The notes under the pieces were generated by a model. It searched no databases and was not told the origin of the DNA. It was given only the letters and a program-made list of their open reading frames with translations. Shown in pieces: positions 12,968 to 43,521 of a stretch of 50,067 bases of DNA (positions within the stretch are counted from its first letter, which is position 1; every line of letters begins with the position of its first letter). This DNA is from a virus. The stretch spans positions 1-50,067 of the IMG/VR virus record IMGVR_UViG_3300042465_003699. One strand, written 5' to 3'. A program made the position numbers and the translations under genes.

Positions 12968-15034
12968 ATGGGATCTGATGAAAATCAAGACAATATTAGT
13001 TCATTGGGCATACTAACAAGTGAATGGAAGCCTTCTCATCAACAATTTGATTACCCAAAAGAGTTTGTCGATTGGGTAAATAGTATAAATAGTGGATGGC
13101 AAAATAAATTGAAGTATAAGCCCTTTGACCTTTATTGCAAACAAGCAGAATTATGGGGAGAAGATGAAAGTCTAATAACCGATTTTGACAACGAAGAAGA
13201 TCAATATGATTGGTTGACTGTAGAGATACAAAAATGTAAAGACAATACTTTATACTTCTGTAATAAGTACGGATTTATAAAGGAGGATAGATCTGAGAAT
13301 GGTACTCTTGCCTATAAGGCTTGGGATGCACAGAAAGTATTATTATTCCTGTTTGATTGTAACTACTCTATGATGATTGGTAAAGCACGTCAAATTGGTT
13401 TTACTACTACGATGTGTTTAGCAGGAATGAAGAGAGTAAATTTAAACAAATCTTACTTCATTAAGTTCGTTACCCACTCAAAAGATAAGGGTATAGAGAT
13501 ATTCCGAGATAAGGTAAAGTGGACATATACTAAGATACCAGACTTTATCGCTCAGGAAGTAAAGAACTGGACTGACCAAGTAATGTCATTTGACAAGAAA
13601 GGTGATAAAAAAGGTCGTGAAGATGGTGGGGCATCTAGATTTCAAGTCGATAGCCCTCAAGTCGATTCTATAAATGGTGGATCTCCATCAGCTGTGTTTG
13701 TGGATGAGATAGGGTTATTCGATATCTTTGGTGAGATGATGCGTGAAGGTAGACCAGCATTATTTAAATACAATCCAGACACTAAAAGAATGGAGATGCA
13801 ACAACAATTCATCGCTTGGGGAACTGGTGGTGAAATGGATAAGGGTGGATCTGTATTTGAGTCTGAATTTAAGATGTGTTTAAGTCAATGGAATGAGAAA
13901 AACTATGAATATGGCATAATCCCTCTATTCTTTAATGCTTATGCACGAAGAGGGGTTGATGATAAGCATATATTAAACGAAAGAAAGGCATATTTAGCTT
14001 TAGAAGGTACTAAAAAAGGGGAATCTGCAAAGGTTCAGTTCCATCAGCACTACCCAATAACAATTGATGATATGTTTGTGCGTAAATCACGTACTTTAGT
14101 GCCTATTCACACTTGTAATAAGAGATTAAGTGACATTTACGGCAAGGATGTGCCTATTGAGTACGGATACTTCGAACCTATACTTGATTATAGCCAACCA
14201 ACTCCAGATTTACTTACTTCACATCGAATAACTGGTGCAAAATGGATGCCTACCTCATCAAGAGAGGATGTAATGACTTCTGCATTGATAATTCATCACC
14301 CACCAAAGGGAGAGGTATGGAGAAGTAGGTATTGGCAAGGAACAGATCCAATAAACTCTGAAACTGGACACTCTATGATGTGTAGTGCTATATGGGACTC
14401 ATTGACTAACTGCGTATCATCAGTTGTATTCCATAGAGACAGAAAATTTAAACTTACATACTTACAAGTACTACTTCAGAGCCTTTATTACGACCAACAA
14501 ATGCGTGGTGGAGTAAAGGAACTAGTAGAAAATAATATTGGAGATATGCACGTTGACTTTCAGGAGATACATGGGTTCAAAGCTAAGTTTACAGCTAATA
14601 CACAGCTTCCAGAATACTTTCAAACACATGGAGGCAAGTGGTTCGGAATATCTAACAAGGCGAATACAGCCCCTAGGATAATAGCGAAGACTGAAGAGAT
14701 GCTAGATGCTTATAGTGAGAATATTGATGTGCCTTGGCTTTGGGAGCAGTTAAAAACTTTCGTAGAAAAGGATTTAAAGTCTCAGAACTCACATAGGCAG
14801 ACAAGATATCAGGCTGCGGATACTAGGTACGATTATGATGATGCTATATTTGCTATAACATTTGCATATATTAACGCATTGGCTCACGTTAGATACGAGC
14901 CTCAGAATATAAAAACAAATTCAGCAGATAGTCAAGTAATTACAAAGTATGTACAGAGTAAAGAAACTAATTTTAGAATGAAGTTAGCTAGAGTTGACAA
15001 GAATACTGGAAAGATACTAAAAATACTTAATTAG
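12968..15034 (+). CDS. Terminase large subunit, 688 aa
   Basis: The DNA-packaging motor. A Walker A-like GKARQIGFTT (about 138-147) in the common phage AR-x-x-G-x-T form and a Walker B AVFVDE (about 241-246) mark the ATPase. The nuclease domain shows the acidic sites GTDP (about 458-461) and YDDAIFA (about 622-628). Length is slightly above the usual 500-650. It follows two basic genes and leads the structural block. The absence of an obvious small subunit next to it is worth noting. Confidence 0.92.
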   Translation: MGSDENQDNISSLGILTSEWKPSHQQFDYPKEFVDWVNSINSGWQNKLKYKPFDLYCKQAELWGEDESLITDFDNEEDQYDWLTVEIQKCKDNTLYFCNKYGFIKEDRSENGTLAYKAWDAQKVLLFLFDCNYSMMIGKARQIGFTTTMCLAGMKRVNLNKSYFIKFVTHSKDKGIEIFRDKVKWTYTKIPDFIAQEVKNWTDQVMSFDKKGDKKGREDGGASRFQVDSPQVDSINGGSPSAVFVDEIGLFDIFGEMMREGRPALFKYNPDTKRMEMQQQFIAWGTGGEMDKGGSVFESEFKMCLSQWNEKNYEYGIIPLFFNAYARRGVDDKHILNERKAYLALEGTKKGESAKVQFHQHYPITIDDMFVRKSRTLVPIHTCNKRLSDIYGKDVPIEYGYFEPILDYSQPTPDLLTSHRITGAKWMPTSSREDVMTSALIIHHPPKGEVWRSRYWQGTDPINSETGHSMMCSAIWDSLTNCVSSVVFHRDRKFKLTYLQVLLQSLYYDQQMRGGVKELVENNIGDMHVDFQEIHGFKAKFTANTQLPEYFQTHGGKWFGISNKANTAPRIIAKTEEMLDAYSENIDVPWLWEQLKTFVEKDLKSQNSHRQTRYQAADTRYDYDDAIFAITFAYINALAHVRYEPQNIKTNSADSQVITKYVQSKETNFRMKLARVDKNTGKILKILN

Positions 15035-18816: not shown

Positions 18817-21018
18817 ATGAGTTATATATTTAACAATAGCGCAGTAAGGCCAAACAAGCTTCAAGCTAAAAAAGATAAGAGTTACCATAGTCAATATGCA
18901 AAATTCTGTTTGTCATCAATGAGTAATGATGTCTATCGAAGATATATAAGTAAATGCTTAATGAACTGGTCTTTCTTTAAAGGACAAGATGGTCAATGGA
19001 TATTCGATGAAGATGTTGAGTCTTTCTTTCTTGATGAATCAGGAGACGTTAGAAACAGACTTAAGTGGACAAAGAATGTTATCAAGCCAATGGTTCAACA
19101 ATACGTTGGTAATGCTATTCGTTTATCTTATGACGCTAGAGCAAACTGCATATCTGATTTCGTAATAAACAAAAGAGAAGAAGACTTAAAGAAATTAAAA
19201 GGACTTCAAGGAATGGCTGAGGCTTTCCCATTCTATAAAGATATTATAAAAGGTGCTGCTCCAATAATGGACACAGAGCAAGAGACAGAAGAACTTTTCC
19301 AAAACACATTTGTGTTACAGCACGAAAAAGATGTAAATAATCTTATTGAATTTATTGCTGCTGAAATAAATATTGACGAATTAAAAGTACAAATAACTAG
19401 AAACTTAGCTCTTTGCGGTCTAGGAATCTATAAAGGGTACGAGCATAATGACAATTATGTAGCTGAATCAATCAATCCATTATTCTACTTATGGGATATG
19501 TCTGCTAGAAAACCTGATTTATCAGATGCAGAACACATGGGTGAGTGGTACTACATGGATAGTCCAAGCATATTTGAAAGATTCCAAAACCTTAGTAAAG
19601 ATGAAATGGATGCTATAGAGAACTATGGCAAAGATGGATCTAAAGGTGTTCATAAAATTATGAATGGAATATATACTCAAGCAGGAGGTAAAGTTCCAGT
19701 CTATGAAGTATATTGGAAAGATGTTGAGCGAAGAGATTATGGTTGGGTTAAAGATGAGCATGGCTATCCTTACTACACAATGATTAATCACGCTGACTCA
19801 AAGTATTCTGATAAAGATTTAATTGAGCCAGTTACTCAGAAGCATAAAGACGAAATGGGTGACAAGAAGAAACATACAATTTATGTTGACGTTCTTAGAT
19901 ACTGCATTTTAATCCCACAAGAAGAAGTTGGTATTGCTGATATAGTTTTAGAATATGGTATCATGCCATACCAAGAGAAGAATCTATATGATCCAGCGAA
20001 TGTTAAGTTTCCATACAAATGTTATACTTGGGTTTACGATAGAGGCGAGATACTTACTCCACTTGATGATGTTATTGATCCACAAAGATTCTTAAATAGA
20101 ACTTTATCAGTAGTAGAATCTCATTTATCAAACATGAGAGGTACTGGTACTGTTATATCTAAATCTGCTGTAGATGACAGAGATGGTGAGGCAGATATAA
20201 TGAGAAACATTAATGCTTCTAAACCTATTTTTGTAGATACAGATAGAGTTGGTTCTGTTCAGAACGCTATTGGTACATACGGAACAAACATTGGGGGTGG
20301 AACGCTACAATTGTTCCAAGTTATTGAATCGGTTCAGCAAAGTATCCAGGATGTAACTGGTGTTAACGAAGCAATGACTGGTACTCAGGGAGGAAGTGAT
20401 ATGCTAGTTGGAGTTGTTGAAGCTCAAATACAAAGAGGATCTCTTGTTCAAGAGCCTTTCTACTGGGCATTGACATCAATACTTAAGCAGGCATACGAAC
20501 ACATGGCTACGATAGGTAAATCTATATACTATGACAATCCAAGAAAGCTATCTATAATGGTTGGTGATGCTGGACTTAAGAGTATCACATTAACAGAAGA
20601 CCATTTATTACAAGATTATAGAATATTTATTAAGAGAGCAGAATCTGCAGAGCAAGGAATCAATAGTGGTAATCAACTATTATTTACGTTGCTACAAGCT
20701 GGAATGATAGATCAACCAATATTTATCAACTTATTTAATAGGTCAAGTCCAGAATTGATAGCTGATGCATTAAGACAAAATCAAAAACTTAAGAATCAGG
20801 CTCAATCAATGACAGATAAAGCATCTAATGAAGGTATCGCTCAAGGCATAGCATCTAACGCAGACCAGCAACAACAAATGGTTGCACAAGAACAAGCAGC
20901 TAAAGAAGAAGCTGTAGGATTTGAGCAAATGAAACATGGACAAGAGGTAGAAAAGATTGCGATAAAAGAAAATGCTAAACTACAAAGAGAGGCACTTAAA
21001 AATAACGGAATGCAATAA
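18817..21018 (+). CDS. Portal protein, 733 aa
   Basis: Size, position and sequence character fit a P22/crAss-type portal, the dodecamer at the capsid vertex through which DNA passes. Visible features: KNVIKPMVQQYVGNAIRLSY (about 86-105), a stem/wing centre, the late segment GVNEAMTGTQGG (about 515-526), long helices, and a Gln-rich coiled C-terminus (residues ~680-733). It lies directly before the scaffold and capsid genes, as portals usually do. The portal call rests on recognisable character rather than on a catalytic motif. Confidence 0.85.
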   Translation: MSYIFNNSAVRPNKLQAKKDKSYHSQYAKFCLSSMSNDVYRRYISKCLMNWSFFKGQDGQWIFDEDVESFFLDESGDVRNRLKWTKNVIKPMVQQYVGNAIRLSYDARANCISDFVINKREEDLKKLKGLQGMAEAFPFYKDIIKGAAPIMDTEQETEELFQNTFVLQHEKDVNNLIEFIAAEINIDELKVQITRNLALCGLGIYKGYEHNDNYVAESINPLFYLWDMSARKPDLSDAEHMGEWYYMDSPSIFERFQNLSKDEMDAIENYGKDGSKGVHKIMNGIYTQAGGKVPVYEVYWKDVERRDYGWVKDEHGYPYYTMINHADSKYSDKDLIEPVTQKHKDEMGDKKKHTIYVDVLRYCILIPQEEVGIADIVLEYGIMPYQEKNLYDPANVKFPYKCYTWVYDRGEILTPLDDVIDPQRFLNRTLSVVESHLSNMRGTGTVISKSAVDDRDGEADIMRNINASKPIFVDTDRVGSVQNAIGTYGTNIGGGTLQLFQVIESVQQSIQDVTGVNEAMTGTQGGSDMLVGVVEAQIQRGSLVQEPFYWALTSILKQAYEHMATIGKSIYYDNPRKLSIMVGDAGLKSITLTEDHLLQDYRIFIKRAESAEQGINSGNQLLFTLLQAGMIDQPIFINLFNRSSPELIADALRQNQKLKNQAQSMTDKASNEGIAQGIASNADQQQQMVAQEQAAKEEAVGFEQMKHGQEVEKIAIKENAKLQREALKNNGMQ

Positions 21019-22216: not shown

Positions 22217-22256
22217 TAAATTGTAAATTATAAATTGTAAATTAAACTGTAAATTA
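22217..22256 (+). repeat. 14-nt tandem repeat in the capsid gene leader
   Basis: TAAATTGTAAATTA occurs at 22217-22230 and again at 22231-22244, followed by a third partial copy (AACTGTAAATTA) that runs into the capsid ATG at 22256. The result is a fully A/T-rich, unstructured leader, favourable to translation in hosts that do not rely on Shine-Dalgarno pairing. Confidence 0.6.
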
Positions 22257-23491
22257 TGGCATTATATAATGACCTAAGTGCAAAATTCAATAACCAAAAC
22301 TTAAACGCAGTTGGTTCTGAATATGCAGAATTGTACGGACATGATGTGTCTAAAATGATTCAAAAATTAACTAATCGTGCGATTTTTGATGCTGCACCAC
22401 AACAATTCATGGATTTGAAGTTGTTGAATATGGTTGAAGCAGAGCAAATCAATTCTGATGAGTTCTTCTATCAAGAAATGGGTTACCAAAGAGAGCCATT
22501 AGTAGCTACTGCTGTTTCTGGATCTGTTTCTTTCCCAACTACTCAAACTATTTCTGTAGTTTCTGTAGAGAACATTTCAACTAACACAATTATCTCTTAT
22601 CCTAATGGACAAAAAGGTAATGTTACTTTTGTTGATACATCTTTGTTAACGATTACTGTTTCTCCATACAATGGTGATACTTTACCAGCTGTTGCAGTTG
22701 ATGATGTATTGGCTAACGTATCTACTGTTGACTACGATGGTTCTGAAGGTTTTGCTCAGTACTTCCGTGCTTCTACAATCGAACGTAACAACTACGTACA
22801 ATTGTTCAACAAAGCTATCCGTTACTCAGAAGTTGAATTGCACAAGTTGAAAAACATGGGTACTACTTCTAACTTCCTTGAAATGGAGCGTAGTGCAATG
22901 TTTAACCAACACCGAATTGACTTATCTAATGCATTTTGGACAGGACAAAAAGGTGAAGTTGTTACACAAAATGGTACTGTAGCTAAAACTACTGGTGGTG
23001 TATTTAGTTCAATGTTAGAGGCTGGTTCTCCTAACGCACTTGCTACTACAGCTACTTTGGTTGATGCATTTGAAGATATCGTTTTGTCTTCTGAGTACGG
23101 AGATTACGGACAAGCACGTATGGCGTTTATGACACCACGTATGCATCGTATGTTATCTTTGGCTTACAAAGAAGAATTGACTCGTTATGCACCAAATGAT
23201 GATATCGCATTGTTGAACTTGAAAGAGGTTAACCTTGGTTCTTCTCGTATCGTTCTTGTACCTTACAAGCGATTTGAAGATGCTGCATCTTTCCCTGCTT
23301 CTTTTGCTAACCGTATTGTTATTCTTGATATGAAAAATATTAAGCGTACACAATTATGGGGTGAGCGTTCTGGAGATACTCTTAAATTAGAGGATGGAGT
23401 TCCTAAGCGTTATGGTGATGTTTGGGTTGATTGTAACATGGGAGTTAAATTCCATAACCCACTTGCTTGCGCTTGGTTGGATGTACAATAA
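22256..23491 (+). CDS. Major capsid protein, 411 aa
   Basis: Placed after portal and scaffold, 411 aa, with biased highly-expressed codons (TTG, GCT, CGT) unlike those of its neighbours. The sequence has the mix expected of an HK97-fold capsid protein: an N-terminal helix region (LSAKFNNQNLNAVGSEYAEL), an extended beta insertion with Thr/Val-rich strands (about 80-165), a long helix (ELHKLKNMGTTSNFLEMERS) and a C-terminal domain ending near a conserved-looking NPLACAW. It is probably the most abundant protein made from this genome. Confidence 0.88.
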   Translation: MALYNDLSAKFNNQNLNAVGSEYAELYGHDVSKMIQKLTNRAIFDAAPQQFMDLKLLNMVEAEQINSDEFFYQEMGYQREPLVATAVSGSVSFPTTQTISVVSVENISTNTIISYPNGQKGNVTFVDTSLLTITVSPYNGDTLPAVAVDDVLANVSTVDYDGSEGFAQYFRASTIERNNYVQLFNKAIRYSEVELHKLKNMGTTSNFLEMERSAMFNQHRIDLSNAFWTGQKGEVVTQNGTVAKTTGGVFSSMLEAGSPNALATTATLVDAFEDIVLSSEYGDYGQARMAFMTPRMHRMLSLAYKEELTRYAPNDDIALLNLKEVNLGSSRIVLVPYKRFEDAASFPASFANRIVILDMKNIKRTQLWGERSGDTLKLEDGVPKRYGDVWVDCNMGVKFHNPLACAWLDVQ

Positions 23492-32554: not shown

Positions 32555-35026
32555 ATGCCAGCAGAAGATAGAAAACAAGCAAGATTAGCTAAGAAAGTAG
32601 CAAGAGCAGATAAACGAACTGGTATATCTCTTGAGTGGCCAGTAGAGCCAAAAATGGGCAAACCTAAAGAAGAAGTTGTTGCTGATGTGTCTCCAGTAAA
32701 AGATGAAACAGCTACTAATGTTCCTCTAGTAAAAGATACTGAGAAAGAAGCGGTTGCAACAGTAGAAACTACAAGTCCATCTATACTTTCAAATATAGTA
32801 TCTGTAAAACCTACTGATACTCAAATTGTTAATCCTGAAAAACAAATAGAAGCGTCTCCAGATGTTATATCTGCTAATGTAGCTAAGGATGAAGTAAATA
32901 AAAGTGCGGCAACTACTCCAAATGTTGGAGATGCTATACTTAAAGAAGTTATAGCTAATCCAAAATCTACAACTGAAGATATAGATAAATCTAAAATACT
33001 AAAAGAAGCAGCTGATATAGAAGAAGCTAAATTAAAAGCTGAGGAAACAGATTTAGCGAATAAAGCAATTAATGAAATAAGTAATCTAGCATCACAAGAA
33101 ACTGATAGAATAATTGGCGATGGCTCAATGGTGTCAGATGTTGTAGCTGGTGGCGGCACGGCTAATGGTAGACCAGCTTATGAGGCTACTGCTACTAAAG
33201 ATCAGGTAGAACAAGACGTAGTTAAAGACGTAAGAACTAGAATATCTGAAGTTCCTGAAGCTGTAGTTGAGAGACTTGGTGTTCAAGATTATTACCCTAA
33301 CATAAATAAAGATATAAACGTAGGTACTTATAGCGGTAAATATATAGGATCAGTTCCAATATTTGCAGCTCCTGGAGCTAGACTTCCTATGGGATTATAT
33401 GATGCTAGAAAAAGAGCATTGGTTGAAGCAGCTAAAGCTAAACAAGCTAAGATAGATGCATTAATGGAAGTTCCAGAAACATCTTATCAATATGATACTA
33501 AATTTAGAGAATTAGCTACAAATACTACTTTTGATATATTAGAAAAACATGATTTTGATCCAGACGCAGTAATGCGAGATAGAGATTCCGTAGCTAAGTT
33601 GAATAGAATACAAGCTAAAGCAAAGGAAGTTACTGGAGCTGTAGCATGGGCTAATGATATTAGAACTAAAAGTACAGATGAAGAAACATATCAACCTGAT
33701 GAAGTTATTGAATTAGCTCAAAAAGTATTATCTGGACAAATAGATAATTTTGATGATATATACGAAGGAAAATCAAATATGACTTCATTATTTAATGATG
33801 CTAAAGTATACATAAATGGTGTTCCTTGGATTACTAAACAAGCTGAATTTATGCTTGATCCAAAGAATATGTCTGAGTCTCCTATAAATTTAAAAACTGG
33901 AGGAGAATATAGTTCTCAAAAATGGATAGATGAAAGAGATGCATTCTTACAGCAAGTTCAAGATGGTAATACAGATACTGATACTTATGTTACTGGTGTA
34001 AATAAATATTTTGGTGGTAAGTATAAAGATATGGTTGATGCATGGATAGAAAGTAATAATGCATCAAAAGAACAAGGTGAAAATTTAAAGAAGATATTTG
34101 CATCAAAAATACAAGAATCTACTATTCTTTCTTATAAGACTAGTAAAAATGCTAATCAATGGCAAGCTAATTTAGCCCAGAAGAAGGCAGAGTTTGAGTA
34201 TATGAAGAAAACAAATGAAGCTTCATTATTTGGACAGTTTGATGGTCAAATGACTGATGCGATAAATCAAAATACTGGAAAATCATATCAACAAGAATTA
34301 GCTGGAATTGATCCTAATTTGAGTCCTGCTAAAAGAGCAGACAGAATAGCTCAAATAGCTAAAACTTATTTCCCTGGTACTGATGTTGGTGTAGATGCCG
34401 TAACTGGAGCTATATCATCTTATATACCTAAGTTTGATGCTAAAATGGATACTAAACCTACCATAGATAGAAATGGAAATGCTATAAGATTATTCTCAGT
34501 TCAAGTGAAGCAAGAAAATGGACAATGGGTTGACATGAAGTTATCAGCAGATAAAATATCAAAATCAAAAAAGGATATACGTTCAGCAGGAACAAAAAAG
34601 ACATTCTCATCTACAGATAAAGATAATTTTGGAGAAGTATCTCCAGGTACTATTAGTACAAAAGTAATTAGAACTGAATTGCTTCCAGCATTTATAAGTA
34701 AAGATGGAGTTACAATATACTTAAAAGCTGATGGATCTAATTTAGCTCAATATAATGCCAGTAAAAATAAGTGCACAATATCTAGAGATATAGAAAAAGC
34801 TTACGTAGTTAGACCTTCATCTGGAATTGGTGGAACTGGAGTCAATTATATAGAATCAGAATTACCAGGAGAAGTTATTGGTGAAGTATCAAACATAAGT
34901 ACCGCTGGTAGTGCAGCAAATAAAGATATTCAATGGGGGTATAAAGCTAAAGAATCTTCAGAATCATACGGTGGGGTTGGTGAATCAGAAGTTTCTAGCG
35001 GAAGTGGTGGATATGGAGCTGAGTAA
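32555..35026 (+). CDS. Internal virion protein candidate, 823 aa
   Basis: Mostly helical. The first ~230 residues are low complexity, rich in Val, Thr, Ala, Lys and Glu and probably disordered. From about residue 240 the protein is structured, with KYIGSVPIFAAPGARLPMG (about 264-282) and helices suited to a large internal virion protein; the last ~30 residues are Gly/Ser-rich. It lies between two other likely cargo proteins. No enzyme motif was seen. Confidence 0.65.
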   Translation: MPAEDRKQARLAKKVARADKRTGISLEWPVEPKMGKPKEEVVADVSPVKDETATNVPLVKDTEKEAVATVETTSPSILSNIVSVKPTDTQIVNPEKQIEASPDVISANVAKDEVNKSAATTPNVGDAILKEVIANPKSTTEDIDKSKILKEAADIEEAKLKAEETDLANKAINEISNLASQETDRIIGDGSMVSDVVAGGGTANGRPAYEATATKDQVEQDVVKDVRTRISEVPEAVVERLGVQDYYPNINKDINVGTYSGKYIGSVPIFAAPGARLPMGLYDARKRALVEAAKAKQAKIDALMEVPETSYQYDTKFRELATNTTFDILEKHDFDPDAVMRDRDSVAKLNRIQAKAKEVTGAVAWANDIRTKSTDEETYQPDEVIELAQKVLSGQIDNFDDIYEGKSNMTSLFNDAKVYINGVPWITKQAEFMLDPKNMSESPINLKTGGEYSSQKWIDERDAFLQQVQDGNTDTDTYVTGVNKYFGGKYKDMVDAWIESNNASKEQGENLKKIFASKIQESTILSYKTSKNANQWQANLAQKKAEFEYMKKTNEASLFGQFDGQMTDAINQNTGKSYQQELAGIDPNLSPAKRADRIAQIAKTYFPGTDVGVDAVTGAISSYIPKFDAKMDTKPTIDRNGNAIRLFSVQVKQENGQWVDMKLSADKISKSKKDIRSAGTKKTFSSTDKDNFGEVSPGTISTKVIRTELLPAFISKDGVTIYLKADGSNLAQYNASKNKCTISRDIEKAYVVRPSSGIGGTGVNYIESELPGEVIGEVSNISTAGSAANKDIQWGYKAKESSESYGGVGESEVSSGSGGYGAE

Positions 35027-35073: not shown

Positions 35074-38000
35074 ATGGCTACAAGCTCTAAAGACTTAATG
35101 TCTACTCAAACTGGTGGATTTGGCGAAACTATACAATCTTCTCCAGAATCAGAAGTTACAGCAGAACAATTCAATATAAAACTTCCAAAACAACAAGTTC
35201 AGGCTAGTGTACAACCAAGTGCACAGCCTGAAGCTATTGTTCCTACACAAGATATTCCTACAGCTCCAATTCAAGAAGAGGTTATTCAGCCTGAAATTCA
35301 AGCAGAACAATCAAGTGAAGACAGATTATATTCTGAGTTAAATTTAACACCAGTAAATCTGCAAGGATTCAATGAAGAAATGTTCGTTGACCAACCTAGA
35401 GAAAGTGCTATTAAGCCTCAAGGCTCATACACAGAGGATGGTTTATATATTAGTGAAGATCCAAATCCAATAGTTCAACCAGTAGAAACTAAAACTGAAG
35501 AAGTAATTAATGAAGAGCCAATGTCTCTCATTACAGAAGATGGACTATCTATCGGGAGTCCTGAGCAAGACAAGAAAGTTGAGTTAGATAAAATCAATAC
35601 AACTTATAAAGCTTCTGGTATTAAGGTAGATAGCGATGGAGTTGTACGAAAGGTAAACAAAGACGATAAAGAAAAACCTAATGGAACTTATGTATACGCT
35701 GGTCAGCCAGATGCTATGTATAAAAAAGTAGGTAAAGATAAGTGGCTTAAAGATTACGATAGTTCTGGAAATTTCCTTCCTATAGAAAAAGATGCAGCTA
35801 GAAGAATAGCATTATTAGAAAGAGATGCTAAACAAGTTGGAGATGGGAAAGATGTTAAGTCAAAAGCATCAATTAATACTGATAAAAATATATCAGAAAG
35901 ATTTGGTAATATAACTGACTTTAATGCTAATTCTGTTTTAACTGCATCTGGAAGCCCAATGGTAGCAGATAATATAGCGTTTAATACATTAATAAGAAAA
36001 AATATAGGTTCTGAAACTGAAAGATATAATCAGGATGGAACTTTAAATTTTAATTACGATGAGAAAAAAGCTGAAATACAAAAGTCTTTACCAAGAGAAG
36101 TAGCTAATCTAGTAGATTATAAAGGGAAACCTGATGGTATTTATTCACTTCCTGATAGCGATGCTAGCTTCAAAAAGTCAGGTAATAATTGGTATAAAGC
36201 AGGATCTGTAAATGGTAAATATCAACCATTAACTGAAGGAGATGTAAATCAAAGAATAGAAAAGCTAGAAAAGTATGCATATAGAACACCAAAGGTTAGC
36301 GAGATAGCTACATTAAGAACTGACGGACAGAAATTAAACATAAAAGCTTTCGGCACTGGATATGCTAACATGGTTGATGAGACTAATAGACTTTTAAATT
36401 CAGATGCATTAAATAAAGTTGATTTATACGATAAAGCATTTGAAGATGCTAATGAGTTCATTAACAAGGATGTAAATATGTTAATGGGAGATAAATTATC
36501 CCAAGAACAAAAAGATGGTATAATCCAAAAGCAACAAGAGATAAAGAAAATAATAGGAGACGGAAAATACGATGTAGCTAAAGCATCTGTAATTGCTGAA
36601 TCATTGAAAGATGCAGAAGAATTCTTTAATGCATCTAAGGCATTTAACGTAAAAGTAAATGAAGGTGTTCAGCAAGGAAAGAGTTTAGCTAGAATGTCTC
36701 TAGATAATAAAAAGAAAACATATTTAGAACACTTTGATTTAAAAGATGATTCAAATATTCAGATAAATGCAAGAGAGTTGTTTGAGATAACATCAAAAAT
36801 GTCTGACTTTGTGCTAGAGAATATTGAGAATGGGAACATGAGGGCCGACACTAAGAATGGTGGATATATATACTCTCCATCATTAAATTCAAAAGAAAGA
36901 AATTACATAGAGTCTAAATTGTCTTCAATGAATGAGGCTTATGATAAATTTAACAATGAAAGATACTCAGCTACAAACGATAGAATAATTCAGCAAAAAT
37001 CTAATAAAGAAAATACTCAATTTAATATAGAAAAATTAGAAAAATCATTAGCTGTATTTGGAGGTGATTCATCAAGACCAGAGTATCAGGATTTATATAG
37101 ACAACTATTAAAGGAAAGAAAAAAGTTAGAATACATTGATATAATTATAGAGGATGAAGAAATTTCTAAGTCTACTGTATTTTTAACTCAACCTAAAAAA
37201 TTGGTTCAGGCAGTATCTACTAATATGTCTCCAATGGCAGAAAATATATTTAATGCTATACCTTCAGATATAACTCCTAAGCAAAGATTTGATTTTTATT
37301 ATGAGCAACTACAAGCAGATAATAATAAATTAGCAAAAGATAATAATCTAGACGATGGATATTTTCAATCTGTTAATAGAAGATTTAAAGATTTATTTGA
37401 CTGGGATGGATTTTATAAATTATCAGACGTAGAGAAGACATACCTTCAAAATGTAGGTACTCTAAATCAAATGTCTACATTGTATTATAATAATGATACT
37501 GGGTTTACAAATGAGTCAACTGGATTTTTTGAGTCATTTATGAATGGTATTGCTCAAACATTAACTCCAAAAACAGCTAAGGCAGATGGATATTTTGCTA
37601 AGTCTGAGATGAATAATACAATGATTTCTGAATTGACTAATCAAGGATTTGATCCTGATGGATATGTTGATAAGGCTACAATTCAAAGAATGGAGGAAAG
37701 AGCTGCTGTTGATTTTATGAGTCGTGAGAATCTTGGTAAAATGGGCGGTTCTACAGTTGGTATTATTACTCCACTTGTGCTTACTGGAGGGGTAGGGCCT
37801 GGAATTTTAAAATTAGGAGTTGGATTAGAGAAATTATTAGTTGGAGTTCAAGGTACTAGCAAGGTATTAACTACCCTAAATAAAGCTGAAAATATATATG
37901 ATGCTACTTTATCAACTACAAAATTAGGTAGATTCTTGTTGCCAGTATCTAAAGCTGGTATTGAGCAAGGTATTAAATTTGAGATTGGTGGATCTGTAGT

Positions 38001-41000
38001 CGGATCTACAGAAGGAGAATTAAATTGGTTTAATGGATTAGCTGGTGGTATTCTATCTGAATCTCTTACTGGAATAATGGCTGGAGCACCTAAGACTGAG
38101 GCGTATAAATGGGTTAAGTCAATATTTGGCAATAAGACTAGCGATGCTATTGATATAATGAAAAGTGCTGGAAAGATTTCAGCAAGAGGGGTAGCGGAAA
38201 TAGGTGACGAAACTGGCTCTCAGTTAGCTAGTATATATAGCCAAACTGATAACTTTCAAGAAATGATGTCTGCTATTGAGGAGCAATATGGATCTATTGA
38301 TAAGGTTGAAGAATTCTTATTGTCAACATTTGTTATGGGTTCTGCATTTAGCATAGTATCGCCAACCAGTAGTAAAGAAGCATACTTCGCATTACCTGAT
38401 GATAAGAAAGCTAGATTAGATAAAATACTTGCTCAAATAGGAGCTGACGTAGCTTCTGCTGAGAGATCAGTTAGTGAATACGCAGAATATGTTAAGACTA
38501 AAGAAGGAAAGAAAGAAGCAATAGATAAATTAGAAGATAAATCCGTAGTAAATGATCAAGAAAACGAGCCAGGGGTATCAGGTGAAGTCGCAAAAGGGAA
38601 AGAACCTATCAAAACCGAACCTATCGTTGGGGCAGGCAAAGAAGAGGTTAGCCCTAGTGGAGTGGTTCAAGAAGAACCCACAGAAGTAGACACTAAGAAA
38701 GTTGATATTGAACAACGAAGACAAGACGAGATAACAGCACTTGAGGCTAAATATAAAATTGACAGATCTAAAGAGCCAGTAGTTGGTGCTTATGGAGTAG
38801 TTGAGGTTGAGTCTGAAAGTTTCAAAGCTGCAAGAGATAAAATCAATGCTAAGTATGATGCTGAATTAGCTGCTGTAAAGCCAGTAGTCGAAACTGAAGA
38901 AGCTCCAATGGCAGAAGCGGTAGCTAAAACTCCAGAAGAAAACTATGCCACAGCACAAGAAGTAAATAATAAGATAGCAGAAGAAAATCCTGATGCAAGT
39001 GTATTATTAACTCCTAAAGGAGATGATTTAAATTTAACTGCTGTTTATGTAGGAAAAGAAAATCGTGGCAAAGGCATAGGAACAAAGGTACTTGAAACAG
39101 TAAAATCAGAGGCTGATAGAACGGGTAAGAAAATAGTTTTAGATACTACAAATGAATTGGATTCTGAAACTAACTTGGAAAGGTTAGGTAATTTTTATGA
39201 GAAAAATGGCTTTAAAAAAGTTGGTGAAAATAAATTTGAATACAATCCACAAGCAGCAGTTACTGAAGAGGCAGCTCCAGAATTAGTAAGCACACCATTA
39301 ACAGAAGAAGAGGTCGCTGGTAAACAAGAAGTTGAATCATCTGTTGGACTTGTTACTATTAAGAATCCTATAAAAGTATTAAAAGGATTGTTTGGCAAGA
39401 AGAATGCTGACGGAAGTATTCGTACTGCTCATCCTGGAGTTAAAGGAACTTGGGGAGCATTGGATGAATCTATTGCTAAAAGATATAAAGGAGAAGACGA
39501 AAAAACACTTACAGAATTTTCTATTCCAGCAGGAACTACAGTTGAAACAATAGAGGTAGATTCTAAAGGTAAGCCAGTTAGTCAAGTTAGACAAGAGGAA
39601 ACTGATGCAGTTAACAACTCTACTGCTCAGGTAGTTAGGCTTGTAACTATGGATTCAGGTTCTTCTAAAAAAGAAAGTCAAATCATAATTAAAGACGAAA
39701 CTTTATCTAAATCACCAGAATCGTCAACAGAAAAAGCAGCTCCAAAAGAAAAAGCAGAATCATGGCAGGATAGGATTGATAGACCAATGACTAATGAAGA
39801 ATTAAATGCATTTAGAACTTCAATTAGAAATAAGTTTCCAGATAGTTATGCGTCTGAAATACTTGACTTAGTTGCCGAAGCTAGAAAAGGAGAAGTAAAC
39901 AATTTACCTTATGAATTAGATAATTTAGCAGATGAAATTACTATTAATGATATAGGAAATTTATTATCTGAAGATGATTTATTTGATTCTAGAGAGAAAT
40001 TAAACGCTTATTTAAGAGATAGATCTAATGCTGGTGATATGTTAAATATTACTAAAGAGTCAAAAGAAGAATCTAAAATAGAAGAAAAATTTGAATCTTT
40101 AGGCGATAGGATTCGTGCTGGTAAAATAAGTGGAACTGGAATGGCAATGTCTGCTATACCTGGATTTAAAGAAGCGTTTAATGGCTCATTAGAAATAGTA
40201 GCTACAGCAGTAGACGCAGGAGTAAGTATTGCAAAGGCTATAACTGAAGGATTTAAAAAAATTAAAGAATCTCAATGGTACAAAGATTTAGGTAAAGAAC
40301 AGAGAGCTCAAGCTTTTGAAGATTATAAAAAGGGAATGAATGAAAAGTTTCCTAAAAAGAGAGTTAGCAAAGCAGAAAGAGATGCAGCTAAAGAGTTTAA
40401 AGCAAAAGTAGACGAAGCAACTGGAACAGCTAAAGAAGAGCCTACTGTATCAATGACTAATAGTCAAGTATTAAGAGAGCAGTTAAAAAATAAAGAAGCA
40501 GGAGCTAAAGACGCAGTTAAATTCATTCAAGGGATGAAAGAGCAGATTAGAGCTTATGCTAAACAAAATCTTCCAAAAGAACTTTACTCTAAAGCTCAAT
40601 TAGATTTATTAATGAATTCAATAAGTAAAGCTAAAACAGCTAAGGCATTAGACACAGCCATTACTAGAATTGATAAAATGGTTGAGAATAAAGCTGAAGC
40701 TAAAAGAATTTTAACAGCTAAAAATATTGTAAAGAAAATAAAAAATAAAAGAGAATTCTTAACTAAGGTAAACGATAAGTGGAAAGGTAAAACTACAGTT
40801 GAATCTCAGAGAGAATTTAAGGAATTTATTAATAGTGGAGCTTTAGATGATTTAGAATTAAAGACTCAGGAAGAGTTAGATGCTATAATGGAAATTATAG
40901 ATGCTATCATAAGTACTGGTAAAGCAGATTTTAAAACTATAAAAACTAAACAAGAAGAAACTAAAAGAAAAGAAAATGCAACACTACTTAAGGGTTTAGC

Positions 41001-43521
41001 TAAAACTCCAGATGTTATCTTAAATGGAGAAGCAGAAGTTGTTGAGTTCCTAGAGAATGGTGGATCTGTTATTATAGATGGTCAATTATATAAAAAAGCT
41101 CAATTTAATAGCTTAAAGCCAACTAATCTTTCTAATGTTGAAGGTTATAAAGCACAAAATATATCATATATTAGAGAAGCGGTAAGAAGAAGAGATGCTA
41201 ATGTATTTAAACGAGTAGCTAGAGGATTAAATCCACTTAATGCTATGTCTGATATATATTCATTATTGAAAAACACTTGGGCGAAGAGTGATGCTGTAAA
41301 AAAATATGTTACTGATAATATAGAAAAACCATTAATTAAAGCTATGCACGATATATTGAATGGTCAAGCAGTTAAGATAAGAGAATATTATGCTGGATTT
41401 AATGAAATATTTGGTTCTAAAAAGAAAGGTCTAGATAGACTAGCTGAAACAATATCTAATGAAGAAAATCCAGTAACTAGTAGATTAAGTTATGAGATAA
41501 CTAATTCTCACATGGTAAATTACTATAATCTATCAAGAGTAGAAGATGGTGTTAGAAGATTAGCTTTTTCTGGTGTTAATGCAACCGATGTAGCTAAGTA
41601 TATGGATAAAAATCAAGATCTTAAGGATTATGCTGATTTCTTAATGCAGAAATACGAGGATAATAAAGTAGATTATGAACCAGTATATGAAGCGGCTACT
41701 GGCATGCCATTTCCTGAGAAGTTATACTATCCAGAATATGCATCTAATTTTGAGCAAGATTTTATTGATGTAAATTCAGTATTAAATAATGATGGATCAA
41801 TAAACGCCATGAGTGCTGTTACAAATAATGTAAAGCAAAGAACATCCTTTAAAGGCCAATATGATTTAAGTATGAATGCACATAACGTATATCTTGATTA
41901 TATAAAGAATATGGAGCATTCAAGAAATCTATTTGAAATAGCTAAAAAAACTAATCAATTATTTAGTACTACAAATGCACCACACTTAATAGCTAATATG
42001 GGCTTAGATAAGTATAATGAATTAAGAGAACACATGGCGGTTATACTTAGTAATAGTATGCCAAAAACAGGAACTACATTGTATAGCAAAGGCGTTAGTG
42101 GTTTGCTTAATTTTAGTGTATTATCTACTCTTGGATTTAAACCAGCGAGTGTTCTTAAACAGTTTACTTCATTTACTCACTATTGGACAGCTGGTATAGC
42201 TGATGGAGTTGATCCTTGGCAAATATGGGGAGCAACCATACCTACAAGTAAAGAAGAATGGAAATTTATATATTCATTAATGACTAGTGATTATATAAAT
42301 GACAGAAGAAAAGGCGGATCTATTGATGTTGAAGCAAAAAAAGTATTAGATGCAGCTGCAAAATCAAAGTCAGCTAAAGCATGGACTGCGGCTACTCAAT
42401 TAGCAATGTCTCCGATTATAGGTGGGGATTTAGCAGCTGTAATATTCGGCCCAGGTGGCGGTAGTGCTTTTGCTTTAGCTACATATAGACAAAGACTATC
42501 TGAAGGCATGAGTAAAGAAGAGGCTGCTGATTACGCTTATAGAAGGTGGGTAGAAGAAACAGAAAAGACACAACAATCAACTAGAGTAGATTTAACAAGT
42601 AATATACAAAGAGATCCATTATGGAGAATGGCTGGAACATATAGAACTGGACAAGCTTCTATGGCTAAAAAGGTTATAAATGCCGTTAAATTATTAAGCT
42701 CTGGAACTACATTGACTACTCGTGAAAAAGCGCAAGCAATAACTGATATAGTATATTTTACTACGTTAGGATCTGTAGCTTTCTCAGTAGTTGCATCTGG
42801 AGCAGTAGGAGCAATGATGTCAAGTGATGATGATGAAGATAAAAGAATTACGCATGATATATTTTGGGATCAAATAGGTTCTGATTTACAAGGTTATGGT
42901 GCTATTGGACATATAGGAGATTGGGCGTTAAATGCAATGAGAGGAGATATTTGGAAAAATAATATTCCAGTAGTTAATTTTGCTCAAAAACTTGCTCAAT
43001 TACCATCAATAATACCAGCTGCTAGCTATAGAAAGTTTGAAGATTTATCTAAAGAAGATCAACTTAAATTTGCTTCAGAGGCTGGTGCAGTAGATATATT
43101 TGGAAATGTTGGTGGTGAATACATTAATCAATTTGATCCTGAAGTTGTAGCAAAATTATTTGAAGAATATAATAATCAGATATTTTGGAATAAATTAACT
43201 GATATGGAATCTAGAGATTTTTATAAATCAATTGGAGCTAAAAATATAGATGATTTAATTAGCAATATGACTGATTATATTAAAGGAGATAAAGAATTAT
43301 TTGATGCTTTGATGAATTACGAAGATGACTACTTTAAAATATCTAAAGAAAGAAATAAAGTAGATTATCTATATAAAATATTTAATGAAGGAGAAGATTA
43401 TATCATTGATGAAGAACAAGGGTATAAAATCAATGAAGTTAAACTTCCTACTAAGCCTGCAAAAGTTATAGAAGCTTATCCAACTGGTGAAAAGCAGAAA
43501 GTTTACAAAACATATAACTAA
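35074..43521 (+). CDS. Giant internal virion protein with embedded GNAT domain, 2815 aa
   Basis: The largest gene here. In order: a disordered N-terminus (1-150, Gln/Glu/Pro-rich); two copies of a ~50-residue module with a KP-N/D-G-x-Y start and a W-containing core (201-250 and 352-401); long helices; a hydrophobic Gly-rich stretch (about 890-925); a low-complexity linker (about 1145-1290); a GNAT acetyltransferase-like domain (about 1290-1390; acetyl-CoA loop NRGKGIGTKVLE, then YEKNGFKKVG); a beta domain of unknown type (about 1423-1550); a helical part; and near the C-terminus a probable membrane helix (about 2558-2583, FTTLGSVAFSVVASGAVGAM). Size and place indicate an ejected cargo protein; the acetyltransferase may act in the host after entry. 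Confidence 0.75.
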   Translation: MATSSKDLMSTQTGGFGETIQSSPESEVTAEQFNIKLPKQQVQASVQPSAQPEAIVPTQDIPTAPIQEEVIQPEIQAEQSSEDRLYSELNLTPVNLQGFNEEMFVDQPRESAIKPQGSYTEDGLYISEDPNPIVQPVETKTEEVINEEPMSLITEDGLSIGSPEQDKKVELDKINTTYKASGIKVDSDGVVRKVNKDDKEKPNGTYVYAGQPDAMYKKVGKDKWLKDYDSSGNFLPIEKDAARRIALLERDAKQVGDGKDVKSKASINTDKNISERFGNITDFNANSVLTASGSPMVADNIAFNTLIRKNIGSETERYNQDGTLNFNYDEKKAEIQKSLPREVANLVDYKGKPDGIYSLPDSDASFKKSGNNWYKAGSVNGKYQPLTEGDVNQRIEKLEKYAYRTPKVSEIATLRTDGQKLNIKAFGTGYANMVDETNRLLNSDALNKVDLYDKAFEDANEFINKDVNMLMGDKLSQEQKDGIIQKQQEIKKIIGDGKYDVAKASVIAESLKDAEEFFNASKAFNVKVNEGVQQGKSLARMSLDNKKKTYLEHFDLKDDSNIQINARELFEITSKMSDFVLENIENGNMRADTKNGGYIYSPSLNSKERNYIESKLSSMNEAYDKFNNERYSATNDRIIQQKSNKENTQFNIEKLEKSLAVFGGDSSRPEYQDLYRQLLKERKKLEYIDIIIEDEEISKSTVFLTQPKKLVQAVSTNMSPMAENIFNAIPSDITPKQRFDFYYEQLQADNNKLAKDNNLDDGYFQSVNRRFKDLFDWDGFYKLSDVEKTYLQNVGTLNQMSTLYYNNDTGFTNESTGFFESFMNGIAQTLTPKTAKADGYFAKSEMNNTMISELTNQGFDPDGYVDKATIQRMEERAAVDFMSRENLGKMGGSTVGIITPLVLTGGVGPGILKLGVGLEKLLVGVQGTSKVLTTLNKAENIYDATLSTTKLGRFLLPVSKAGIEQGIKFEIGGSVVGSTEGELNWFNGLAGGILSESLTGIMAGAPKTEAYKWVKSIFGNKTSDAIDIMKSAGKISARGVAEIGDETGSQLASIYSQTDNFQEMMSAIEEQYGSIDKVEEFLLSTFVMGSAFSIVSPTSSKEAYFALPDDKKARLDKILAQIGADVASAERSVSEYAEYVKTKEGKKEAIDKLEDKSVVNDQENEPGVSGEVAKGKEPIKTEPIVGAGKEEVSPSGVVQEEPTEVDTKKVDIEQRRQDEITALEAKYKIDRSKEPVVGAYGVVEVESESFKAARDKINAKYDAELAAVKPVVETEEAPMAEAVAKTPEENYATAQEVNNKIAEENPDASVLLTPKGDDLNLTAVYVGKENRGKGIGTKVLETVKSEADRTGKKIVLDTTNELDSETNLERLGNFYEKNGFKKVGENKFEYNPQAAVTEEAAPELVSTPLTEEEVAGKQEVESSVGLVTIKNPIKVLKGLFGKKNADGSIRTAHPGVKGTWGALDESIAKRYKGEDEKTLTEFSIPAGTTVETIEVDSKGKPVSQVRQEETDAVNNSTAQVVRLVTMDSGSSKKESQIIIKDETLSKSPESSTEKAAPKEKAESWQDRIDRPMTNEELNAFRTSIRNKFPDSYASEILDLVAEARKGEVNNLPYELDNLADEITINDIGNLLSEDDLFDSREKLNAYLRDRSNAGDMLNITKESKEESKIEEKFESLGDRIRAGKISGTGMAMSAIPGFKEAFNGSLEIVATAVDAGVSIAKAITEGFKKIKESQWYKDLGKEQRAQAFEDYKKGMNEKFPKKRVSKAERDAAKEFKAKVDEATGTAKEEPTVSMTNSQVLREQLKNKEAGAKDAVKFIQGMKEQIRAYAKQNLPKELYSKAQLDLLMNSISKAKTAKALDTAITRIDKMVENKAEAKRILTAKNIVKKIKNKREFLTKVNDKWKGKTTVESQREFKEFINSGALDDLELKTQEELDAIMEIIDAIISTGKADFKTIKTKQEETKRKENATLLKGLAKTPDVILNGEAEVVEFLENGGSVIIDGQLYKKAQFNSLKPTNLSNVEGYKAQNISYIREAVRRRDANVFKRVARGLNPLNAMSDIYSLLKNTWAKSDAVKKYVTDNIEKPLIKAMHDILNGQAVKIREYYAGFNEIFGSKKKGLDRLAETISNEENPVTSRLSYEITNSHMVNYYNLSRVEDGVRRLAFSGVNATDVAKYMDKNQDLKDYADFLMQKYEDNKVDYEPVYEAATGMPFPEKLYYPEYASNFEQDFIDVNSVLNNDGSINAMSAVTNNVKQRTSFKGQYDLSMNAHNVYLDYIKNMEHSRNLFEIAKKTNQLFSTTNAPHLIANMGLDKYNELREHMAVILSNSMPKTGTTLYSKGVSGLLNFSVLSTLGFKPASVLKQFTSFTHYWTAGIADGVDPWQIWGATIPTSKEEWKFIYSLMTSDYINDRRKGGSIDVEAKKVLDAAAKSKSAKAWTAATQLAMSPIIGGDLAAVIFGPGGGSAFALATYRQRLSEGMSKEEAADYAYRRWVEETEKTQQSTRVDLTSNIQRDPLWRMAGTYRTGQASMAKKVINAVKLLSSGTTLTTREKAQAITDIVYFTTLGSVAFSVVASGAVGAMMSSDDDEDKRITHDIFWDQIGSDLQGYGAIGHIGDWALNAMRGDIWKNNIPVVNFAQKLAQLPSIIPAASYRKFEDLSKEDQLKFASEAGAVDIFGNVGGEYINQFDPEVVAKLFEEYNNQIFWNKLTDMESRDFYKSIGAKNIDDLISNMTDYIKGDKELFDALMNYEDDYFKISKERNKVDYLYKIFNEGEDYIIDEEQGYKINEVKLPTKPAKVIEAYPTGEKQKVYKTYN

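Follow-up and report, generated by a model that had tools for sequence, protein, structure and literature searches.

The giant open reading frame and its surroundings

The window, i.e., the whole 50,067-nucleotide stretch of DNA from an uncultured virus analysed here, contains a giant open reading frame, P0001 (35074–43521; plus strand, as for all features below), which starts with ATG and encodes a protein of 2815 amino acids. A sequence-only reading of this DNA had treated the frame as a genuine gene, and this is borne out: it is open over 2815 codons, and in its homologue in the sister contig L002 the same frame is open over 2930 aa. The codon changes between P0001 and the L002 protein in the C-terminal part (137 synonymous and 154 non-synonymous) are compatible with a protein under constraint.

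Upstream of P0001, we recognised genes for the terminase large subunit (12968–15034; phrog_5989, E = 1.5e-8), the portal protein (18817–21018; phrog_6547, E = 2.6e-33) and the major capsid protein (22256–23491; matched to the major capsid protein of PDB entry 9in6, E = 6.5e-5), all on the same strand. P0001 is preceded by a 1501-aa tail-like ORF and then, directly upstream, by an 823-aa protein (32555–35026) that is syntenic in relatives. Since the terminase, portal and capsid genes lie upstream, P0001 stands late in the structural block, at its end; a place among late structural genes is also a mark of polyvalent proteins. Neither P0001 nor the major capsid protein had relatives among 50,697 phage records. 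The 1501-aa ORF and the C-terminal part of P0001 had no match to solved virion proteins, and the C-terminal part found none in the PDB by profile search either.

The sequence-only reading had also placed a membrane helix near the C-terminus. The most hydrophobic stretch of that region is indeed there (residues 2559–2577; 42748–42804); however, its mean hydropathy of 1.59 falls just below the usual Kyte-Doolittle threshold of 1.6, and residues 894–912 are equally hydrophobic. A membrane helix at this place is thus borderline, and from the sequence it is possible.

Relatives with two genes in place of one

In relatives whose portals are approximately 75% identical to that of the window, the giant is encoded by two genes. 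The N-terminal part of P0001 (residues 1–1212; 35074–38709) corresponds to a separate protein, the product of the first gene, with 1313–1663 aa where complete. The C-terminal part (residues 1660–2796; 40051–43461) corresponds to another separate protein with 26–32% identity, and the second gene of L073–L076 matches P0001 over residues 1279–2796 at the same 26–32%. In the window and in its sister L002, the two are fused into a single gene.

The two giant genes are separated by a constant gap of approximately 470 bp, occupied by a 155-aa gene, in all nine relatives examined (L071–L079; e.g., L073:15700–16169 and L078:9090–9559); in L073 this gene encodes a ferritin (PF00210, E = 6.9e-16). The gap gene is absent from the two contigs with fused giants, the window and L002. 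Its C-terminal tail is nearly invariant across L071–L079. The second protein differs between relatives at its front, which carries a GNAT domain in L073 and L076, an ART-PolyVal domain above the cut-off in L074 and L079, and a ParB match below the threshold in L075. In L079, two ORFs of 626 and 1459 aa stand in place of the second giant gene (L079:3565–9892), through either a frameshift or a true split. We also observed a short block of P0001, residues 1158–1205 (38547–38688, approximately 140 bp), that keeps 83–85% DNA identity to L073 and L076 amid a strongly diverged protein.

The N-terminal part contains two copies of a module of approximately 57 residues, at residues 201–258 (35674–35847) and 352–408 (36127–36297), found by family HMM and alignment, with the pattern KPdGxYxY..YKKxg..WYKD....F.pL.kgDv..R...LE..A. 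The duplication noticed in the sequence-only reading is real: the Smith-Waterman score of the two copies is 74, compared to a maximum of 61 among shuffled sequences (0 of 1000 shuffles reach it), and the family HMM scores the first copy at 70 bits and the second at 76 bits. In L071, L072, L077 and L078, the first protein also has two copies, and the giants of L084 and L086 have one copy each; the duplicated module therefore predates the window phage. A scan of the collection with this module was dropped because its alignment was too variable.

A GNAT domain within the giant protein

An acetyltransferase module of the GNAT type occupies residues 1285–1395 (38926–39258), as delimited by Pfam, the predicted fold and DNA matches. 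PF13508 matches residues 1312–1382 (E = 4.7e-8; 33.7 bits against a curated cut-off of 27), and phrog_1249, an acetyltransferase family, matches as well (E = 8.3e-7). The acetyl-CoA loop is RGKGIG, residues 1331–1336 (39064–39081), which follows the GNAT loop pattern R/Q-x-x-G-x-G/A; the GNAT-like domain with a loop near residue 1330 had been picked out correctly from the sequence alone. In an alignment of 11 homologous modules over approximately 110 residues, the three loop glycines (G43, G45 and G47 of the alignment) are invariant, and so is the motif FY..NGF, including the tyrosine of FYEKNGF.

A structure prediction of about residues 1250–1560 had been proposed as a check. Our AF2 model of residues 1270–1561, with an input alignment of 11 rows, predicts the GNAT fold, with a pLDDT of approximately 85 for the core (residues ~1286–1394) and below 50 for the stretch behind it (residues ~1397–1555). 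A fold search with the GNAT model retrieved 62 PDB chains at Z of at least 8. The GNAT is the only enzymatic domain recognised in P0001 by Pfam and PHROG searches.

Among solved proteins, AcrVA5 is the best match both by profile (E = 7e-5 in 177,635 sequences; second match 5e-4) and by fold (6iuf; Z 11.8, rmsd 2.0 over 92 of 96 residues; next Z 9.8). AcrVA5 is 22% identical to the window GNAT, and its margin over other GNATs is modest. We consider this closeness, which comes from sequence profiles and a predicted fold, as a lead on the function of the GNAT and not as proof, both proteins being compact GNATs.

Lateral spread of the GNAT module

The GNAT module is also present, with 67–84% protein identity and inside giant ORFs, in six other viral contigs (L084–L087, L090 and L091). 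When the structural proteins of the window were compared to the fetched stretches of these contigs, the GNAT was the sole shared part for five of the six; L086 additionally shares one repeat module with the window, and an unmasked search gave one extra weak match for L085 (26% over 148 aa). DNA identity to the window GNAT is 89.1% for L084, 87.9% for L085 and 84.9% for L086 over 313–331 bp, and these matches end at the domain edges (for L084, 38926–39256, 331 bp). In bacterial genomes, a search for the module gave one weak match at 30% identity (HMM E = 0.04), which does not point to a host.

We compared four-fold degenerate sites of the GNAT with those of the portal. In the GNAT, the fraction of changed sites between the window and L084–L086 is 0.21–0.28, compared to 0.65–0.70 between the window and L073/L076, which belong to its own portal family; the portals of the window and L073/L076 differ at 0.53–0.55 of such sites. 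The portals of L084 and L086 resemble the window portal at only 24–26% over approximately 200 residues. Therefore, the history of the GNAT differs from that of the phages. By synonymous sites and portal comparisons, the GNAT is a mobile module that has spread laterally between barely related phages. It was undetected in several homologues of the same giant protein.

Replacement behind the GNAT and paired peptide handles

The L002 gene is 99.6% identical to the window over its first 4203 nt. Behind the GNAT, a 426-nt segment of the window (39277–39702; residues ~1402–1543) is then replaced in L002 by an unrelated 720-nt segment, after which the match resumes at 89.4%. The window segment had no homologue in viral contigs or phage records. 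By eye it gave the impression of an ART; this candidate was rejected, with no Pfam match, an AF2 pLDDT below 50 and no homologue found. A framed segment in L135–L138 shares 56% identity with the L002 occupant over 197 aa. Assignment of this segment to ART was also rejected, given that there was no Pfam ART match, no support from the Pfam-ART set and a mean AF2 pLDDT of 49; nevertheless, comparison with the by-eye set of ART-like slots (hhalign) gave a probability of 48 and E = 1.8e-4 over 41 columns, and the top Foldseek matches mainly have an ART fold, with E-values of 0.14 at best. We regard the segment as ART-like only tentatively.

The replacement is seen by comparing two contigs, both from metagenomes; a join made during assembly within the conserved GNAT is conceivable, and the apparent replacement would then be a chimera of two co-occurring strains. 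The step in identity from 99.6% to 89.4% at the junction would fit such a join, and the GNAT is the sort of shared stretch where assemblers cross over. On the other hand, the reading frame remains open, the L002 occupant resembles the framed segment of L135–L138, and composites of the GNAT and a handle are found with other occupants in L085 and L087. We therefore consider a chimera unlikely; moreover, the match to L135–L138 and the L085 and L087 composites indicate that exchange at the place adjacent to the GNAT occurs anyway.

Two peptides, STAKALE and AEAYHKAKANGSSPELVKAVEDLL, flank the 720-nt segment of L002, and counterparts of these handles recur in L085, L086, L087 and L090. In L002, L085 and L087, the GNAT directly precedes the first handle (within approximately 12 residues), each time with a different occupant behind it. 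No handle was found in P0001 itself. When IMG/VR was scanned with the second handle, 83 stretches matched and 80 were retained, 67 of them in ORFs longer than 1500 aa (median 2524 aa). The first handle was located 16–330 aa upstream of the second in 58 of 90 members, the number of first-handle matches also being 58; as some contigs occur twice in this 90-member set, and as the model of the first handle derives from these very proteins, the pairing describes the set and is not a test on independent data.

Slots between the handles are either short (16–65 aa) or filled (at least 95 aa). For 71 members, Pfam was run on the 560 aa surrounding the second handle, and the position inside the slot was read off for some domains only: seven stretches contain ART-PolyVal, up to five contain GNAT, and PBECR3, LPD23 and cytosine methylase occur once each. 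By eye, ART-like, ParB-like, zincin-like, NlpC/P60-like and kinase-like occupants were seen, most of them below Pfam cut-offs. As firm assignments, the zincin (HEIIH/HEVGH), kinase-like and ParB-like occupants were rejected for missing these cut-offs and serve as leads only. One occupant without a Pfam match (L130:6407–7015) has the kinase-like pattern GKGDFGKAY ... DLQSGNLGYD. In L148 (6626–7012), a GNAT lies inside a framed slot; the giants of L095 and L097 contain a stretch that resembles it (39% identity over 79 aa) and likewise fits the GNAT profile.

Discussion

Very large phage proteins of this type are known. Iyer et al. described in 2017 "polyvalent proteins", including GNATs that are typically found beside ART domains, placed these GNATs in a RimI-like clade and suspected recombinational variability of the proteins (PMC5512222). 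The idea of a genome-delivered enzyme is therefore not new, as it is a theme of that work. P0001 is like the polyvalent proteins in its very large size, its place in the late structural region, its GNAT and its predicted delivery with the DNA. Relatives of the window protein carry ART-PolyVal, nucleotidyltransferase, LPD22 or LPD23 domains; among homologous or GNAT-bearing giants, ART-PolyVal is above the cut-off in L074, L079 and L090, and L090 also has the nucleotidyltransferase. The difference is that polyvalent proteins contain several disparate effector domains, whereas in P0001 the GNAT alone is recognisable; the AcrVA5-like character also sets the window protein apart from known polyvalent proteins. 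New here are a lineage for which no cultured member was found, a replacement that is seen directly, a lateral spread quantified from synonymous sites, and paired handles that flank variable segments in numerous giants.

Other known systems offer models for delivery. The GNAT profile gave distant matches in three cultured phages: the virion RNA polymerase of Stenotrophomonas phage Pokken, a 2482-aa structural protein of Tenacibaculum phage Gundel_1, and a 2514-aa protein of Vibrio phage 1.185.O that also bears LPD22. The N4-type virion RNA polymerase of Schitoviridae is, like P0001, a giant protein that ends the structural block, and it is ejected. In Pokken (gp67) the stretch that fits the GNAT profile is N-terminal to the polymerase domains, which are absent from P0001 according to Pfam and present in Pokken; the stretch (L100:9001–9249) was seen with the module HMM, and not with Pfam at E = 0.01. 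The crassvirus cargo proteins (PhicrAss001 gp45–gp50; PMC10172136), which are likewise encoded behind the portal, capsid and a long tail protein, are a model of internal storage and ejection. No solved crassvirus protein matched the window ORFs searched, and the window portal weakly resembles that of a crAss-like phage (26% over 142 aa).

We propose, with a probability of roughly 0.7, that P0001 is a virion-delivered giant scaffold of the polyvalent type that carries exchangeable effector modules. The two-protein scaffold of relatives, fused in the window, would be packed with the DNA, in the head or the tail, and ejected early, before or with the DNA; it would then present exchangeable effector domains in the cell at the start of infection, and the GNAT would acetylate a host protein. 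The ejection step draws on the gene position, on the behaviour of T4 internal proteins, crassvirus cargo and the N4 virion RNA polymerase, and on the cultured relatives; by these analogies, packaging and ejection are rather likely. Delivery with the genome is plausible from the late structural context and because cultured phages have GNATs of the same profile in their giant structural proteins. Catalysis on a host protein is probable, if less securely so, and it is doubtful that the target is a defence protein. The sequence-only interpretation of an enzyme that travels with the genome and modifies host proteins before any phage gene is expressed is thus partly supported.

By analogy, candidate targets may include a defence nuclease (from the AcrVA5 resemblance), RNA polymerase (from the Rac precedent) and a ribosomal protein (from the RimI-like clade). 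AcrVA5 acetylates the PAM-sensing lysine of Cas12a (PMC7556299, PMC10799925), and Bacteroidota phages encode AcrVA5-type acetyltransferases active on Cas12a (PMC10799925). The GNAT might thus be a virion-delivered, AcrVA5-like anti-defence enzyme whose target would be a lysine in a CRISPR effector, or in some other nuclease, acetylated ahead of the first cut. AcrVA5 tops both the profile and the fold searches, and AcrVA5, AcrVA5Bsp and the window GNAT are compact, with a similar size (~95–110 aa) and predicted fold. The loss-of-function positions of AcrVA5Bsp, G75 and T78 (PMC10799925), are spaced as G1334 and T1337 are in P0001, a correspondence that comes from the spacing and not from an alignment; furthermore, restriction enzymes are inhibited by injected T4 proteins (PMC12373910). 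However, AcrVA5 is a small free-standing protein while the window GNAT forms one domain of a 2815-aa ORF, coverage by the PDB is sparse, the profile margin is modest (7e-5 versus 5e-4) at 22% identity, and a fold gives no substrate; this specific role is speculative.

Modification of host RNA polymerase or ribosomal proteins, which would redirect expression, is likewise tentative. It has a precedent in Rac of phiKMV-like phages, as cited in PMC7824862, and it would agree with the RimI-like clade of polyvalent GNATs (PMC5512222), with RimI structures at Z 8.9–9.2 and with the TIGR01575 match (E = 0.004), although the RimI matches are weaker than those of AcrVA5 and far below the curated cut-off. 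The GNAT could also act on the phage's own proteins during assembly or ejection, or be a structural passenger with no enzymatic role, as its conservation in giants of several phage lineages would allow. The invariance of the cofactor-loop glycines and of the FYEKNGF tyrosine in 11 sequences argues against this possibility, and a module that moves between unrelated giants and is undetected in several homologues does not look like a structural necessity; we consider it improbable.

Returning to the scaffold with exchangeable modules, we suggest, as a conjecture that is more easily wrong than right, that many uncultured phages share a common format of virion giants. This format would have a slot between [DVESTAKALE] and ISEAYHKAKADGSNPELVKAVEDLL, in which recombination swaps effectors between phage lineages, in the manner of polymorphic toxins. 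The window GNAT, whose homologues in L002, L085 and L087 directly precede such a slot, would then be a circulating AcrVA5-type payload that disarms host defence by acetylation before phage gene expression. The handles are a simple search key: anything between them is a candidate virion-delivered effector.

Replacement at one site and the lateral spread of one module are now seen at the level of sequence. An anti-CRISPR protein whose synthesis follows entry is late in protecting the genome that infects first, whereas an acetyltransferase carried in the virion would be active from time zero; such action can be tested with the GNAT module and the cultured relatives (Gundel_1, Vibrio phage 1.185.O and Pokken). 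The GNAT seems to belong to a set of interchangeable tools with which phages, by injecting them, may disarm a host.
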